This document shows, piece by piece, positions 11,917 to 21,452 of a stretch of DNA of 64,000 bases. The DNA is from Hyphomonas chukchiensis (GTDB lineage: Bacteria > Pseudomonadota > Alphaproteobacteria > Caulobacterales > Hyphomonadaceae): positions 62,001 through 126,000 of the forward strand of contig NZ_AWFG01000052.1 in the NCBI RefSeq assembly GCF_000682695.1. The letters are read 5' to 3'. How positions within the stretch are numbered: position 1 is the first letter of the stretch; the number at the start of each line of letters is the position of its first letter. Position numbers and translations under genes: made by a program. The notes under the pieces are model-generated. The model did no database searches, was not told the DNA's origin, and worked only from the letters and a program-made list of their open reading frames with translations.

Positions 11917-12918
11917 TTAGGAGGCGGCGGGTTCCGCAATGAACGGCGCACAGGCCGTTTTGAGAAGGCCGATGGCCGACGCTGAGCCGAGTCCGCCGCC
12001 CGTCTGGAACTCCAGCTGCATTAGCGGGCGCAGGCCAAGGCGCTCAAGCGCCGCCTCATGCGCGGGGCGTTGCGTGCTATGAGAGGCCATACAATGACTA
12101 ATGGCGGTCGGGTCGATGGCATGCACCACACCTGCCGCAATCGTCGTCGCGAAGCCGTCCAGCACGACGGGCACGCCTTCGTGCCGCGCCGCGATAATGG
12201 CGCCCACGCAGGCCGCAAGCTCGCGGCCGCCAAGGCACCGCAAAGCCTCCAGCGGGTCTGACAGGTGCCCCCGGTGCAGGGTCAGGGCGCGACTCACAAG
12301 CTCACTCCGGCGTTTGGAAATGGCTGGCGGTGTATGGTTGCTGGGCCGCACCCAGTAATCCGGCGAACCGCCATAAAGCGCGCAGGCGACAGCCGCCGCC
12401 GCAGTCCCGACACCCGCACCAGACACGGCAAGCGCCAGCAGGTCCGGCTTGTCCTCGATGGCCTCAAAGCCAAAGGCGATGGTTGCGGCGCATTCGCGCT
12501 CAGACATGGCTGCCGTCTCGGCAATGCTCGGCGTGGGGCGGTCCAGCGCCAGCTCGAACACCCGGATATTGGCGCCAGCCTGGGTCGCGATGGCCGATAG
12601 CGGGGCCTTGCCCTCGCGCAGCGCATCAACATGCGCGCGGGTATCGACATCGCTCGACAGCGACACGCCCTCGTCCACAAGTCCGTGTGAACCGGCAAAG
12701 ATCGCCAGAACAGGTTGCTCGATGCGCGGCGGGTAGCGACGCTGCCAGTTGGCCAGCCATTCAGCCGCTTCACCCAGGCGACCGAAATCGCCCTCGCGCC
12801 CCATGGTCAGCAGCGCCTCGCGCACTTTCCTGCCCGGCTCGGTATCAAGCGGAATCCGCTTCAGAACGAGCGCACGAACATCATCAAGCGGCGCCGAGGA
12901 ATTGGCAGGGTCAGTCAC
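11917..12918 (-). CDS. CobT-family protein (nicotinate-nucleotide:DMB phosphoribosyltransferase homologue), divergent
   Basis: The overall CobT fold is recognisable: VLAIFAGSHGLVDEGVS, HLSDPLEALRCLGGRELAA, VLDGFATTIAA and the C-terminal HSTQRPAHEAALERLGLRPL. The family activates the lower base of cobalamin by forming alpha-ribazole phosphate. By eye, two catalytic segments differ: the usual EMGIGNTT reads SGAGVGTA, and the usual GEGTG near the C-terminus reads QTGGG. Both glutamates held to be catalytic in Salmonella CobT therefore appear absent. I choose GTG 12918, with GGGAG ten bases upstream, over a TTG at 12945. No cobalamin riboswitch is visible. It may be a diverged or differently acting member. 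It lies upstream of the acyl-CoA dehydrogenases on the same strand. Confidence 0.72.
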   Translation of the reverse strand: MTDPANSSAPLDDVRALVLKRIPLDTEPGRKVREALLTMGREGDFGRLGEAAEWLANWQRRYPPRIEQPVLAIFAGSHGLVDEGVSLSSDVDTRAHVDALREGKAPLSAIATQAGANIRVFELALDRPTPSIAETAAMSERECAATIAFGFEAIEDKPDLLALAVSGAGVGTAAAAVACALYGGSPDYWVRPSNHTPPAISKRRSELVSRALTLHRGHLSDPLEALRCLGGRELAACVGAIIAARHEGVPVVLDGFATTIAAGVVHAIDPTAISHCMASHSTQRPAHEAALERLGLRPLMQLEFQTGGGLGSASAIGLLKTACAPFIAEPAAS

Positions 12919-15286: not shown

Positions 15287-17935
15287 TCAGGCGACACCAT
15301 CTGCCAGAACGGCCAGCGGATCGTAATTGAGAATGGGCGCAAGCCAGCGCTCCGCCGTCCGCATGTCCCAGCCCTTGCGGCGCGCATAGTCCTCGACCTG
15401 GTCCCGCTCGATGCGGCCGACAGCAAAGTAGACGCTTTCGGGATGGGCAAAATACATGCCCGACACGCTCGATGCAGGCGTCATGGCGAAGCTGGATGTC
15501 AGCGAGACGCCAATCTGGTTTTCGGTATCCAGCAGCTTGAACAGCGTCGCCTTTTCCGTGTGCTCCGGCTGGCTCGGATAACCGGGCGCCGGGCGGATAC
15601 CGCGGTACTTCTCTTCGATCAGGTCCTGCGGGTTCAGGCCCTCATCCGGCGCATAGGCCCACAGCTCCTTGCGGACACGCTCGTGCATATACTCGGCCAT
15701 GGCCTCGGCAAAGCGGTCAGCGAGTGCCTTCACCATGATCGAGGAATAATCGTCACCCTTTTCCGCAAAGTCCGCCGCGATGGCTTCAACCTGCGGACCA
15801 GCCGTGACACAGAAGCCGCCAATCCAGTCCTCGCCTTCAGGGGCGACAAAGTCCGAGAGCGCGAAGTTCGCCCGCGTGTTGTCCTTCACCATCTGCTGGC
15901 GCAGCGTGTGGAACACGTCGCCTGTTTCGAGACGGATATCGTCAACGTCGCCATTTGCTTTCCAGAACCCGACAACCGCCTTCGGCTGGAACCACGCTTC
16001 GCCAACAAGGCGCTGCATCATCGCCTCGGTATCCCGCCACAAGCCGCTCGCCGCCTCACCGACCACCTTGTCCGTCAGGATCGCCGGATACTTGCCCGCC
16101 AGATCCCAGGCCGAAAAGTAAGGCGTCCAGTCGATGTAGCGCGCCAGCGTGGCCAGATCGATGTCGTCAAACGTCCTCACGCCGGAATAGGTCGGCACCG
16201 GGCGCTCATAGGCATCCCAGTCGATTTTCATGGCGGCTGCACGCGCCTCGGCCAGCGGCAGGCGCGGCTTGGGCGGGCCATCCTTGCGGGCGTCCCGCAT
16301 GCGCTGGTAGCGCGCCTTGGTCTGCGCCAGGAAACCGGGCTTGTCCGTCTCGCTCAGCAATGTGCTCACCACACCCACGGCCCGGCTCGCATCGGACACA
16401 TGGATGACGGGGGCGCACTGGATCGCCGGCTCGACCTTCACCGCCGTGTGGGCCGGGCTCGTCGTCGCCCCGCCGATCATCAGCGGTTGCGTCATGCCGC
16501 GCCGCTGCATCTCGGAAGCCACATAGACCATCTCGTCCAGGCTTGGCGTAATCAGGCCCGACAGGCCGATGATATCAACGTTCTGCTCAATGGCCGTGTC
16601 GAGAATTTTCTCAGCCGCAACCATCACGCCCAGGTCGATAATCTCGTATCCGTTACAGGCCAGCACAACGCCTACAATATTCTTGCCAATGTCGTGCACA
16701 TCGCCCTTCACGGTCGCCATCAGCACCTTGCCATTGGACACATCGACCGTCCCGAGACGGATCTTTTCTTCCTCGAGATAGGGCTCGAGATAGGCCACAG
16801 CCGCCTTCATCACGCGGGCCGATTTCACCACCTGCGGCAGGAACATCTTGCCGGATCCGAACAGGTCACCGACCACGTTCATGCCGTCCATCAATGGCCC
16901 TTCGATCACATGCAGTGGGCGCTCGAAAGACTGGCGCGCCTCTTCGGTGTCCACCTCGATGAACTCCGTGATGCCGTGGACAAGGCTATGCTCCAGACGC
17001 TTGGCTACAGGTGCCTCACGCCAACGCGTGTCCTTCTCCTGAACCTTGCCCTTCTGGCCGCGATATGTCTCGGCAATGTCGACAAGGCGTTCTGTCGCTT
17101 CAGGGTTCCGGTTGAGGATCACGTCCTCGACGGCGTCGCGCAGCGCAGGCTCGATATCGTCATAGATGTCCAGCTGGCCGGCATTGACGATGCCCATGTC
17201 CATGCCCGCGGGGATCGCATAATACAGGAACACCGAGTGCATCGCCCGGCGTACCGGCTCATTGCCCCGAAAGCTGAACGACACGTTCGAAAGCCCGCCC
17301 GAGATATGACAACCGGGGCACGTCTCGCGGATCACCTTGGCAGCCTCGATAAAGTCCACCGCGTAATTGTTGTGCTCCTCGATCCCCGTCGCCACCGCGA
17401 AAATGTTCGGATCAAAGATGATGTCTTCAGCCGGGAAGCCGACCTCTTCGGTCAGTATCTTGTAGGCCCGCTGGCAAATCTCGATCTTGCGCGCCGCCGT
17501 ATCGGCCTGCCCGTCTTCATCGAAGGCCATCACAACCACGGCCGCTCCATAGGCGAGACACGCCCTGGCATGCTTGCGGAAAATCTCCTCGCCCTCTTTC
17601 ATCGAGATCGAGTTGACGACCGCCTTGCCCTGCACGCATTTCAGGCCGGCCTCGATCACTTCCCATTTCGAGCTGTCGATCATCACCGGTACGCGCGCAA
17701 TGTCCGGTTCGGCGGCGATCAGGTTCAGGAACGTCCGCATGGCCTCGGCGCCGTCGAGCATGCCCTCGTCCATGTTCACGTCGATGATCTGCGCGCCATT
17801 CTCGACCTGGTTGCGCGCCACTTCCACTGCGTCGGCGTAGCGCCCCTCGGTGATCATCTTCCGGAACACGGCAGAGCCGGTCACGTTCGTGCGTTCGCCG
17901 ATATTGATAAAGCGGGTGGAGGCAGATGAAGTCAT
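15287..17935 (-). CDS. metH: Methionine synthase, C-terminal part (pterin-, cobalamin- and activation domains)
   Basis: The protein (882 residues) matches E. coli MetH without its N-terminal homocysteine domain. The pterin-binding domain begins [11 protein letters not shown] at residue 11. The cobalamin domain follows with [13 protein letters not shown], placing the lower-ligand histidine at residue 414. The activation domain has the AdoMet-binding [16 protein letters not shown] near 780. It transfers the methyl group from methyltetrahydrofolate through cobalamin to homocysteine bound by its partner, encoded at 18357-19424. Its start overlaps the stop of the intervening cyclotransferase-like gene by four bases. 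All key domains look intact. Confidence 0.95.
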
Positions 17936-18360
17936 TTGCGGGTGCGTCCCCTGTCGAGCGGCCAGTTGCCGTCCGGAATGTCAGTGAAGCCCTCTGCGGG
18001 CTGATTGTACCAGTAGATCCAGGCCTGCTCGCCGGTCGGCGCGCCCTGGTCATCCAGCAGCGGAATTTTCTGTCTTGTATAGAGCGACGTATCCGGGTCG
18101 TCCGTGACGTCCTCGAATGCATCCATCGCACCGATGATTGAAATATCGTCCAGCGCGTAGCGCACGCCATGGCAAAGCTGCTCGCCGTCCACCACGCCCG
18201 GAAAGCCGCCAAGATCCAGCAACCTTCCGCGAAACCGGCAGGCGCCGAGAAACTTGCCCGACGCTTCCAGCGGCAGGTCTGACGGCATGCCCGCAGCGCC
18301 CTGCTTCAGCAGGCCATAGAACACGAACAGGTCGCCTTTTTTGACCGTTCCGCCCGTCAT
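17932..18360 (-). CDS. Gamma-glutamylcyclotransferase-like (AIG2/GGCT) protein between the metH halves
   Basis: The protein (142 residues) has the GGCT-fold signature [11 protein letters not shown] at the N-terminus, where the usual motif is YGSL or [18 protein letters not shown] carries the candidate catalytic glutamate of the fold, and [11 protein letters not shown] plus AWIYWYNQ are later strands. Family members cleave gamma-glutamyl compounds to 5-oxoproline, or act as amine cyclotransferases. It overlaps both metH half genes by four bases (ATGA), so it is made in step with them. A link to glutathione or gamma-glutamyl peptide turnover feeding the sulfur cycle is conceivable, but the substrate is unknown. 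Confidence 0.72.
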
Positions 18361-19424
18361 GACGCCAGCACGAAGGGTTCCAGGCCCGCAAGGCGCATGT
18401 CGTGCGAGGTCGGCGCAGGGTCACGCGGCTTCAGGCCAGCCGTCGCCTTGGCAATCGCCGCGATATGCTCCGGTGTCGTGCCACAGCAGCCACCGAGGAT
18501 GTTGACGATCCCGTCCTTCGCCCAGCCGCCCACAGAGCCCGATGTCTGGCCCGGCGTCTCGTCATACTGGCCCATCTCGTTCGGCAGGCCGGCATTCGGA
18601 TAGGCCGCCACCAGCGTATCGGCAATCCGCGACAGCGACGCGATGTGCGGCCGCATCAGGTCCGCCCCGAGCGCGCAATTGAACCCGATGGCAAACGGCT
18701 TGGCATGCCGCACCGAATTCCAGAACGCCTCGACCGTCTGGCCAGACAGCGTACGCCCCGACCGGTCAGTAATTGTTCCCGAAATCCAGATCGGCAGTTT
18801 CTCCATGCCCTCTTCTTCAAGGTCCATGATCGCCTTGATCGCGGCCTTGCAGTTCAGCGTGTCGGTAATCGTCTCGATCAGGTAGAGGTCCACCCCGCCT
18901 TCGTTCAGCGCCTGAACCTGCATCCGGTAGGCCTCATAGACCTCATCGAACGTCACCGAGCGATGGCCCGGGTCGTTCACGTCCGACGACATGGACAGCA
19001 TCTTGTTCAACGGTCCGATCGAGCCGGCAGCAAAGCGTGGCTTGTCCGGCGTCTTCGCCGTCCATTCATCGGCTGCCGCCCGTGCCAGTTTCGCACCTTC
19101 CAGATTGATGTCGCGCACGGCCTCCGCATCGAGCTTGTAATCGTCCTGCGCAATCGTCGTCGCCGAGAACGTGTTCGTCTCGGAAATATCGGCGCCGGCC
19201 GCATAATAGGCGTTGTGCAGGTCAGTCACGATATCCGGCCGGGTGAGGCACAGGATGTCATTATTGCCCTTCATCTGCCCCTCATGGCCAATGAAGCGCT
19301 CACCGAGGAAATCGGCCTCGTCGAGCCCCCGCCGCTGGATCATCACACCCCACGACCCATCGAGGATCAGGATGCGCTCCTTGGCGGCGGCTTTCAGTGC
19401 GGCGATGCGGTCTTTGCGTGTCAT
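18357..19424 (-). CDS. metH: Methionine synthase, N-terminal homocysteine methyltransferase part
   Basis: The protein (355 residues) is a homocysteine S-methyltransferase domain: ILDGSWGVMIQ at the start, TNTFSATTIAQ, and the zinc-binding cysteines in GFNCALG (about 250) and GGCCGTTPEHI (about 311-312). It corresponds to residues 1-350 of E. coli MetH and must work with the separate cobalamin-binding polypeptide at 15287-17935. A split MetH is common in alphaproteobacteria. metF ends nine bases upstream of its start, and its stop overlaps the cyclotransferase-like gene. Confidence 0.93.
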   Translation of the reverse strand: MTRKDRIAALKAAAKERILILDGSWGVMIQRRGLDEADFLGERFIGHEGQMKGNNDILCLTRPDIVTDLHNAYYAAGADISETNTFSATTIAQDDYKLDAEAVRDINLEGAKLARAAADEWTAKTPDKPRFAAGSIGPLNKMLSMSSDVNDPGHRSVTFDEVYEAYRMQVQALNEGGVDLYLIETITDTLNCKAAIKAIMDLEEEGMEKLPIWISGTITDRSGRTLSGQTVEAFWNSVRHAKPFAIGFNCALGADLMRPHIASLSRIADTLVAAYPNAGLPNEMGQYDETPGQTSGSVGGWAKDGIVNILGGCCGTTPEHIAAIAKATAGLKPRDPAPTSHDMRLAGLEPFVLAS

Positions 19425-19433
19425 GTCAGGGCC

Positions 19434-20333
19434 TCATGCAGCCTGTGCAGGCTTGGGTTTCATGCCGAGCAGGCGGCAGGTCGACAGCGCCAGTCCCGCC
19501 CGGTTCAGCGTGTAGAAGTGAAAGTCGCTGACGCCTTCATCGGCCAGCTTGTGGCACAGTTCGGCGGCCACAGTCGCCGTTACAAGGTCTCGTGTCTCAT
19601 CATCGCTGTCGAGCCCGTCATACAGCCGGTCGAGCCAGGCAGGAATTGTCGCCTGCACCATGCCAGCCATGCGCTTGAGGCCGGCAAAGTTCGGCTGCAG
19701 CATGATCCCTGGCACGAGCGGCATGGTGATGCCCTTCGCGCGCGCTTTTTCGACAAAGCGCAGGTAAGTGTCCGGTTCGAAGAAGAATTGCGTGATCGCC
19801 CGCTTGGCGCCTGCATCCTGCTTCGCCTTCAGGAAGGCGAGGTCTTCGTCCCAGCCCCGGCTGTTCGGGTGGGGCTCCGGGTAGCACGACACCGATATCT
19901 CGAACTTGCCAGCCTCGGAGAGCGCTTCGATCAGCTCCACCGAATTGGCAAAGCCATCGGGATGAGGCGCAAAAGCGGCGCCCATGCCTTCGGGCGGATC
20001 GCCGCGCAGGGCCACGATATGGTGCACGCCCGCCGCTGCATAGGAATCGGCTACGTCCAGCACTTCCGCCTTCGTCGCCGACACGCAGGTCAGGTGCGCC
20101 GCCGGGCGCAGCGCCGTGTCACTGGCAATTCGTTTCACCGTGTCATGCGTGCGCTCACGCGTGGACCCGCCGGCGCCATAGGTCACAGACACAAATTCCG
20201 GCGCCATAGGCTCCAGCCGCTGCACGGTCTCCCACAGGCGCGCCGCCATGGCTTCGCTCTTGGGCGGGAAGAACTCGAACGATACGGACGGCGCCGCATG
20301 CTTCTGACGGTTGGCAATCGAAAGACTGCTCAT
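19434..20333 (-). CDS. metF: 5,10-methylenetetrahydrofolate reductase
   Basis: The protein (299 residues) has the MetF pattern: SFEFFPPKSEAM at the N-terminus, EFVSVTYGAGGSTRERT, HLTCVSATKAEV, HIVALRGDPPEG and QFFFEPDTYLRF. It reduces methylenetetrahydrofolate to methyltetrahydrofolate, using FAD and NAD(P)H, and so supplies the methyl donor to the split MetH encoded directly downstream. Its ATG overlaps the stop of the SahR-like regulator gene by four bases. Length matches E. coli MetF (296). Confidence 0.95.
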   Translation of the reverse strand: MSSLSIANRQKHAAPSVSFEFFPPKSEAMAARLWETVQRLEPMAPEFVSVTYGAGGSTRERTHDTVKRIASDTALRPAAHLTCVSATKAEVLDVADSYAAAGVHHIVALRGDPPEGMGAAFAPHPDGFANSVELIEALSEAGKFEISVSCYPEPHPNSRGWDEDLAFLKAKQDAGAKRAITQFFFEPDTYLRFVEKARAKGITMPLVPGIMLQPNFAGLKRMAGMVQATIPAWLDRLYDGLDSDDETRDLVTATVAAELCHKLADEGVSDFHFYTLNRAGLALSTCRLLGMKPKPAQAA

Positions 20334-21307
20334 GCTTTGGCCTCCTCGGGCAGGGCCGCCTTTTCGGCGACCCAGATATTGACCACCAGTCCCGGGCCAG
20401 TGGCCTCGGGCGGCGCGAAGGAAGCGGGCGCGGACAGCTTCAGCTGCGCATCCTGGGCCCAGGCTTCCATATTGTCGTTCCGCATGCCCAACCGGTGGTG
20501 ACCATGCTCGGACCGCAGGAACTCCAGATCATGGGCGGCAAAATCGACCACCAGCAGGCGCCCGCCGGGTTTCAGCACGCGGCTCGCCTCGGCAATCACC
20601 CTCCCCGGCGCATCCATGAAGTGCAGCACCTGGTGAATGATGACGAGATCGGCTGAGGCATCCTCAAACGGCGCGGATGTAACATCGCCCTGGCGCACAC
20701 GGGCGCCCGTGATGCCCGCCCGCTCAAGATTTGCCCGGGCCACGGTCAGCATCTGGTGGCTGAGGTCGATACCTTCGGCCTCGCGCGCCAGCGGCGCAAA
20801 AAGCGCCAGCATCCGGCCTGTCCCCGTACCGAAGTCCACGACCCGCTCGAACGGGCCGGGTCCGGCAAGCTCCAGCAGCGCCGCTTCAATGGCCTCATTC
20901 GGATAGTGAAGCGACCGGATCGTGTCCCATGTACCGGCCAATTCGGAAAAGTAAGACTCCGCCGAGGCCGCGCGCAGGGCCGTCACTTCCTCAAGCTGCT
21001 GCGAATCGCGCTGCAATGTCGGCGAATCGACCGCAATCTGCTCGAATAGGGAATCGAGAAAGGCGCGCCCCTCCCCTCGACTGGCCGCGCGATAGAAAAC
21101 AAACGAGCCCTCTGGCATACGTTCAACCAGTCCCGCACTCGTCAGGGCCTTCAGATGATGAGACAATCGGGGCTGGGACTGCGCCAGGACCTGCACAAGC
21201 TCGCCGACTGACAAATCCCTGCCGCGCAGAAGCGCAAGTATCCGCAAGCGCGTCGGTTCGCCCGCCGCGCGCAGCCGGTCCAGAGTGGGAACGAGATCAG
21301 ACTTCAT
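20330..21307 (-). CDS. ArsR-family regulator fused to a SAM-dependent methyltransferase domain (SahR-like)
   Basis: The N-terminal 85 residues form an ArsR winged helix (LRAAGEPTRLRILALLRG, QSQPRLSHHLKALTSAGLVE). Residues about 135-300 form a class I methyltransferase domain with motif I VVDFGTGTGRML and VLKPGGRLLVVDF. This architecture, beside metF and metH, matches SahR, described as an S-adenosylhomocysteine-sensing repressor of the methionine cycle in proteobacteria. The methyltransferase fold probably binds SAH as effector rather than acting as an enzyme. I choose ATG 21307 over 21349, because a promoter and palindrome end just before it. It is the first gene of the operon and probably autoregulated. 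Confidence 0.82.
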   Translation of the reverse strand: MKSDLVPTLDRLRAAGEPTRLRILALLRGRDLSVGELVQVLAQSQPRLSHHLKALTSAGLVERMPEGSFVFYRAASRGEGRAFLDSLFEQIAVDSPTLQRDSQQLEEVTALRAASAESYFSELAGTWDTIRSLHYPNEAIEAALLELAGPGPFERVVDFGTGTGRMLALFAPLAREAEGIDLSHQMLTVARANLERAGITGARVRQGDVTSAPFEDASADLVIIHQVLHFMDAPGRVIAEASRVLKPGGRLLVVDFAAHDLEFLRSEHGHHRLGMRNDNMEAWAQDAQLKLSAPASFAPPEATGPGLVVNIWVAEKAALPEEAKA

Positions 21308-21313
21308 ATCAGT

Positions 21314-21342
21314 ATATAAACATGGGTTTATATGTTCTGCAA
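21314..21342 (-). promoter_or_regulatory. Promoter and palindromic operator of the sahR-metF-metH operon
   Basis: On the minus strand TTGCAG (21337-21342) and TTATAT (21314-21319) are separated by exactly 17 bases. A perfect 8-bp inverted repeat, ATATAAAC-ATGG-GTTTATAT on the plus strand (21314-21333), covers the -10 hexamer and most of the spacer. A bound ArsR dimer would block RNA polymerase. The expected transcription start falls at or next to the ATG (21305-21307), and no ribosome site is present, so the message may be leaderless. Confidence 0.65.
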
Positions 21343-21452
21343 TAAACATTTCATGTGTTCATGCAGAATGAATTTACCAAACTGTGTGTTGATGGAGCGG
21401 TTTCGAATTACCATTCTAATAATCCAACCTAACCTCCCAGAGGGCTTTCCTC

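Follow-up and report, generated by a model that had tools for sequence, protein, structure and literature searches.

In Hyphomonas chukchiensis, a gene for a GGACT-like protein lies between the two genes of a split methionine synthase (MetH), at a junction that is filled in related genomes by one or another of many unrelated genes. We think it probable that the protein is a working GGACT-like enzyme and a long-standing passenger in a repeatedly filled slot, kept for its own use and not for MetH. The preference of inserts for the split-metH junction is a more interesting finding than the GGACT-like gene itself. The case is a tractable one for asking how passengers come to sit inside the operon of a single enzyme and whether they render a gene split irreversible. 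It also cautions against inferring function from a single tight neighborhood: seamless overlaps mimic partnership, yet many unrelated genes take the same seat.

The splitting of MetH is already known. An excerpt of the GapMind paper (PMC7311316) describes, for Burkholderia phytofirmans, a MetH whose S-methyltransferase domain is encoded apart from the remainder of the protein. The break point is the same here; the halves in B. phytofirmans have consecutive locus tags in that excerpt, whereas up to four genes separate them in the genomes considered below. Excerpts of two further papers describe a three-part MetH in Phaeobacter (PMC5764234) and list the Caulobacter MetH as CCNA_02221 and CCNA_02222 (PMC6538847), the latter presumably being the other half. 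The open-licence PMC literature yielded no description of genes inserted at this junction. Passenger genes in operons are familiar as "genomic hitchhiking", which the present case resembles in that unrelated genes are held in a stable operon. What sets it apart is its location, where the two parts of a single enzyme meet, and the higher frequency of inserts there than at the one neighboring junction compared.

Organization of the locus

The window, that is, the whole 64,000-nucleotide stretch that was analyzed (contig NZ_AWFG01000052.1, positions 62,001 to 126,000), contains the following features at the locus.

15287 to 17935, minus strand: MetH C half, 882 aa, with pterin-binding, B12-binding and activation domains (Pfam)
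17932 to 17935, minus strand: ATGA overlap of the GGACT-like gene and the MetH C half (sequence)
17932 to 18360, minus strand: ORF of 142 aa with an ATG start, GGACT-like (PF06094) by Pfam and fold, with Y15-G16-L17-L18 and Glu83 at the predicted active site
18357 to 18360, minus strand: ATGA overlap of the MetH N half and the GGACT-like gene (sequence)
18357 to 19424, minus strand: MetH N half, 355 aa, homocysteine S-methyltransferase domain (Pfam)
19434 to 20333, minus strand: metF (PF02219), 9 nt upstream of the MetH N half, a junction used as a control
20330 to 21349, minus strand: ArsR-type regulator fused to a class I methyltransferase, upstream of metF and overlapping it by 4 nt

The two MetH ORFs carry complementary sets of Pfam domains, S-methyl_trans (PF02574) in the N half and Pterin_bind (PF00809), B12-binding_2 (PF02607), B12-binding (PF02310) and Met_synt_B12 (PF02965) in the C half, and each aligns to its own, successive part of the MetH models, as expected of a split MetH. 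A sequence-only reading of this DNA had reported a GGCT-fold gene that overlaps both metH genes by four bases, and both overlaps are present: TCAT at 18357-18360 (ATGA on the coding strand) is common to the 142-aa ORF and the end of the N-terminal metH ORF, and TCAT at 17932-17935 (likewise ATGA) to the 142-aa ORF and the start of the C-terminal metH ORF.

From these overlaps the same reading concluded that translation of the three genes is coupled. Ribosomes ending the N half would reinitiate at ATGA on the GGACT-like gene and then on the C half, and through such reinitiation the GGACT-like protein would be made together with MetH. The stable linkage of the three genes holds in Hyphomonas and much of its family; their translational coupling is probable. 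Four-base overlaps are common in the metH operon, being found also between metF and the ArsR-methyltransferase gene (20330-20333) and at other genes that occupy the slot (RlaP in L037, DUF4259 in L023), and the exact four-base overlap is therefore less telling. Between positions 12000 and 23000 there were no Rfam matches at the gathering threshold, and promoter- and terminator-like sites showed no excess over shuffles. Control by a riboswitch or other RNA was dropped as a candidate; neither of the two results supports or refutes regulation by methionine.

Family, fold and conserved residues

The 142-aa protein matches PF06094 (GGACT) with an E-value of 6.2e-15 and 56.2 bits, against a cut-off of 22.8, and has no match to the ChaC profile PF04752 at E-values up to 1. 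Its AlphaFold model (pLDDT 85.5, pTM 0.83, 37 sequences in the alignment) is a GGCT-type barrel, the fold shared by GGCT and GGACT. In a second look with VIA-align, mouse and human GGACT came out on top, with Z-scores of 13.0-12.4 over 122-124 residues (1vkb 13.0, 3jub 12.6), followed by c4763 (12.3, tied with GGACT within 1), PH0828 (11.8), YtfP (10.2), human GGCT (2rbh/3cry; 9.0, below the GGACT rows) and ChaC2 (7.2). Foldseek's own ranking placed PH0828, YkqA and YtfP first, with TM-scores of 0.54-0.60, and no GGACT was among the best 50 matches shown. A sequence search of the PDB ranked E. coli YtfP (1xhs, profile E-value 6e-15) first, not GGACT. We nevertheless favor GGACT over YtfP because Glu83 aligns with Glu82 of human GGACT, while YtfP has no Glu at this catalytic position (LDALR, against DEFED in the 142-aa protein). 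Glu82 is given as the acid/base residue of human GGACT in an excerpt of the relevant paper (PMC7022552).

The protein thus resembles GGACT (PF06094; 3jub/3juc/1vkb) in Pfam family, predicted fold and position of the catalytic Glu, and YGTLKRG of human GGACT aligns with its YGLLKQG. It differs in that the Thr of YGTL is Leu, in that a 13-residue stretch of the human and mouse enzymes is missing, and in that identity in the structural alignment is 20-24%; it is, moreover, a predicted enzyme. Because the strict motif YG(S/T)L is not present, with Y, G and the final L kept and Leu as the third residue, we lowered the claim to "GGACT-like". The variant YGLL had been singled out in the sequence-only reading; it is as read there, and since Leu17 is conserved in 35 of the 37 aligned sequences, it is no local oddity. 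Tyr15, Gly16 and Glu83 are invariant in all 37, the window's included. On the strength of fold and residues, the protein is probably an active GGACT-like gamma-glutamyl(amine) cyclotransferase.

The gene is under purifying selection, with dN/dS of 0.04-0.23 in 12 pairs. Constraint is weaker than on the MetH N half (0.015-0.132) in 12/12 pairs and than on the MetH C half (0.025-0.068) in 11/12. Given these values and the presence of the full gene in 34 of 37 genomes of the genus, 17932-18360 is no chance ORF.

Conservation within Hyphomonas

Searching the genus gave matches at E <= 1e-3 in 36 of the 37 Hyphomonas genomes, of which 34 were counted as full length. Of the other three genomes, G010 holds only a 66-residue piece of the gene. 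The match in G011 (30% identity) contains two in-frame TGA codons, overlaps the end of the MetH N half and was counted as not intact; MetH is split in this genome too, its slot is taken by a PNPOx-like gene, and an intact GGACT-like copy was not found. G029 gave no match, but there MetH C is cut by the end of a contig, making the genome uninformative.

At all 30 Hyphomonas loci inspected, the GGACT-like gene lies between the MetH halves. Its ATG or GTG start falls in a four-base overlap with the N half at 27 of them, the exceptions being one locus with another gene intervening (L023) and two with CTGATG (L025, L030). A four-base overlap with the C half is found at 25; the other five have 556-805 nt of further DNA before the C half. 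In a separate collection of named loci, the gene is flanked by both MetH halves at 45 of 50, by the N half only at L071 and L078, and by no metH at L067, L079 and L080.

Occupants of the junction across the order

We located both MetH halves and the GGACT-like gene in each of 150 genomes of the order (order and families are the sample's own grouping; NCBI places H. oceanitis in Hyphomonadales). The halves are linked in 121 genomes, and in 61 of these, from 13 of 26 genera, they are separated by at least 350 nt, our definition of a filled slot; gaps of 120-350 nt (9/121) were not counted. As the genomes are related, these slot figures are counts and not independent events. The GGACT-like gene occupies the slot in 25 of the 31 linked genomes of the window's family (25 of the 61 filled slots) and never in the other four families, which contribute 90 linked genomes. 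A distant homologue lies outside the slot in seven genomes, all of one other family. The sequence-only reading had named the gene's place in split-metH relatives as the check on its linkage to MetH; the linkage fails this check at the level of the order (25/121, one family only, homologues elsewhere in seven genomes) and passes it at the level of the genus. In 27 of the 30 genomes of family f5 we found no linked halves; an N half was found at another place or contig in 25 of those 27.

To describe what fills the slot, we retrieved 50 of the 61 junctions counted as filled, the remaining 11 being Hyphomonas with the GGACT-like gene. Contents were assigned by tblastn with representatives that had themselves been identified by Pfam. 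The counts rest on gap length and tblastn because long antisense ORFs, a product of high G+C, hid real sense genes, e.g. GGCT in G012 and PNPOx in G127. PNPOx is present in 20 of the 50 slots, across four families, the GGACT-like gene in 14, and DUF4259 in nine (two families, with one Hyphomonas locus in addition). Less frequent are DUF1428 and a D-Ala-D-Ala-ligase-like protein (six slots each), a class I methyltransferase (five, three families), DUF6882 (five), a PIN protein and a 130-aa family without a Pfam match (three each), and RlaP (two); in five slots, tblastn found none of the searched representatives. Named loci outside the order sample add KptA and a sulfatase, and one slot has an MtlR-like protein that scores under the Pfam cut-off. 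Up to four other genes can stand between the halves, as in L061. Unrelated genes therefore replace the GGACT-like gene at the same site in relatives, as expected of an operon passenger.

Outside Hyphomonas, the window's family is represented by 17 sampled genomes, and 16 of these carry the PNPOx-family (PF01243) slot gene. This gene is also found in G011 and in three other families, with one or two genomes apiece (loci L090-L100, L102-L106, L109, L135, L141, L142 and L146), having entered the slot once or several times. In two genomes of a fifth family (L164, L165), PNPOx lies between metF and the C half, with the N half elsewhere. The PIN-domain protein occupies the slot in two families (L129 in G170, L112 in G065, L145 in G162), in a toxin-antitoxin-like arrangement, with a possible partner gene beside it in L129.

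Exchange of the MetH N half

The MetH N half exists in two well-separated versions among 44 named loci, 22 each, with 57-62% identity to the window's N half in one version and at least 78% in the other. Across Hyphomonas and its relatives (L031-L077), now one and now the other version occupies the same place. Well-supported branches of the MetH C tree of the 44 loci force at least four changes of version, one of which rests on the long-branched row L063; L048, L067, L071 and L078, of L031-L078, are omitted from this tree, a part being missing or the piece too short. The GGACT-like gene is present at all 44 loci, beside either version, and this is difficult to reconcile with the gene being closely matched to a single MetH N half. 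By the AU test, the tree of the GGACT-like gene rejects that of MetH N as well as that of MetH C, and the history of the gene was therefore not simply vertical in place.

Role of the GGACT-like protein

As a passenger, the GGACT-like enzyme would release 5-oxoproline from small gamma-glutamyl compounds, its likely role being general gamma-glutamyl turnover to 5-oxoproline. The gene would owe its retention to the cell's use of the enzyme and to steady expression from the slot, and not to any binding or serving of MetH. The 5-oxoproline could be recycled by PxpA, a 5-oxoprolinase subunit, which was found in 11 of 13 Hyphomonas genomes searched, a figure to be taken with caution since the same tool missed the GGACT-like gene itself. 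None of 21 genomes gave ChaC, a weak absence given that this tool missed the GGACT-like gene with the gene's own Pfam family; likewise, the genome-wide PF06094 search, having missed the window's gene, leaves room for other PF06094 genes in Hyphomonas. Folate polyglutamates were rejected as a substrate on chemistry, since glutamates joined through the gamma position lack the free alpha-amine that cyclisation needs.

The sequence-only reading had gone further and proposed a special link to the methionine cycle or a partner of split MetH. The protein might then clear a gamma-glutamyl compound (e.g. gamma-glutamyl-homocysteine or a glutathione-derived species), or bind split MetH, and owe its position to this. 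We do not favor this proposal and consider it unlikely. The very high and always-in-slot persistence in Hyphomonas (30/30 loci, with 45/50 in the named collection) is what a functional link would also predict, and to that extent it weighs against the passenger reading; the PxpA and ChaC counts, with the latter's absences weak, suggest in addition that the protein could be a main source of 5-oxoproline. On the other side, none of the 90 linked genomes outside the window's family has the gene in the slot, seven genomes carry homologues elsewhere, other families occupy the slot, the N half has been exchanged with the gene retained, and G011 retains split MetH without an intact copy. We infer that the protein has no MetH-specific role.

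The split junction as a site for inserts

As a control, we compared the neighboring junction between metF and the N half in the same genomes. Spacers of at least 350 nt are found there in 19/114 genomes, versus 60/114 at the junction of the halves; seven of the 121 genomes were dropped because metF is not linked to the halves, and gaps at the metF junction are uncertain by about 20 nt owing to the fixed MetH N length of 1062 nt that was used. Inserts thus favor the split-metH junction over the one neighboring junction compared. Outside the order, 34 of the sampled genomes of the class (115 genomes, two of which, G000 and G037, are order members) yielded an N half: it is fused to the C half in 12, on another contig in one, and split and linked in 21. 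Fusion was judged by equal open-frame lengths, with a possible frameshift in G198 and a contig edge in G242. The 21 split, linked metH all have gaps of 5-138 nt, only one exceeding 120 nt, and hence inserts of at least 350 nt number 0/21, against 61/121 in the order. From this we conclude that, in the samples examined, the filled slot belongs to this order.

The contents of the slot are not random, PNPOx recurring in four families, the methyltransferase in three and DUF4259 in two, which counts against a simple passenger reading. One could imagine the split-MetH junction as a selected docking site that became protected and well expressed once metH had broken. A limited group of genes (for a PNPOx-like flavin protein, the methyltransferase, DUF4259 and the GGACT-like cyclotransferase) would be taken up there again and again; some of them would act on MetH chemistry involving cobalamin, flavin or thiols, and their presence would lock the enzyme in its split state. 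To us this idea, too, seems improbable at present.

Somewhat less probable still is a translational spacer, in which the extra cistron would set the ratio of N half to C half and the identity of the gene would matter little. It would account for inserts from many families and for the C half following the gene by a four-base overlap at 25/30 Hyphomonas loci, but not for the short gaps of all 21 split, linked metH outside the order, nor for f5, where 27 of 30 genomes have halves not found linked. A decaying or non-catalytic leftover is very improbable: YGLL deviates from YG(S/T)L and G011 is without an intact copy, but the low dN/dS and the invariance of Tyr15, Gly16 and Glu83 in 37/37 sequences argue to the contrary.

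About a dozen of the inserts between metF and the N half were looked at. In some Hyphomonas and in G090 the insert is a VOC/glyoxalase-type gene (L035:2499-2927, of Pfam family PF00903; L160; L161), and in part of a second family (L159, L163) it looks, from its motif, like a metallo-beta-lactamase.
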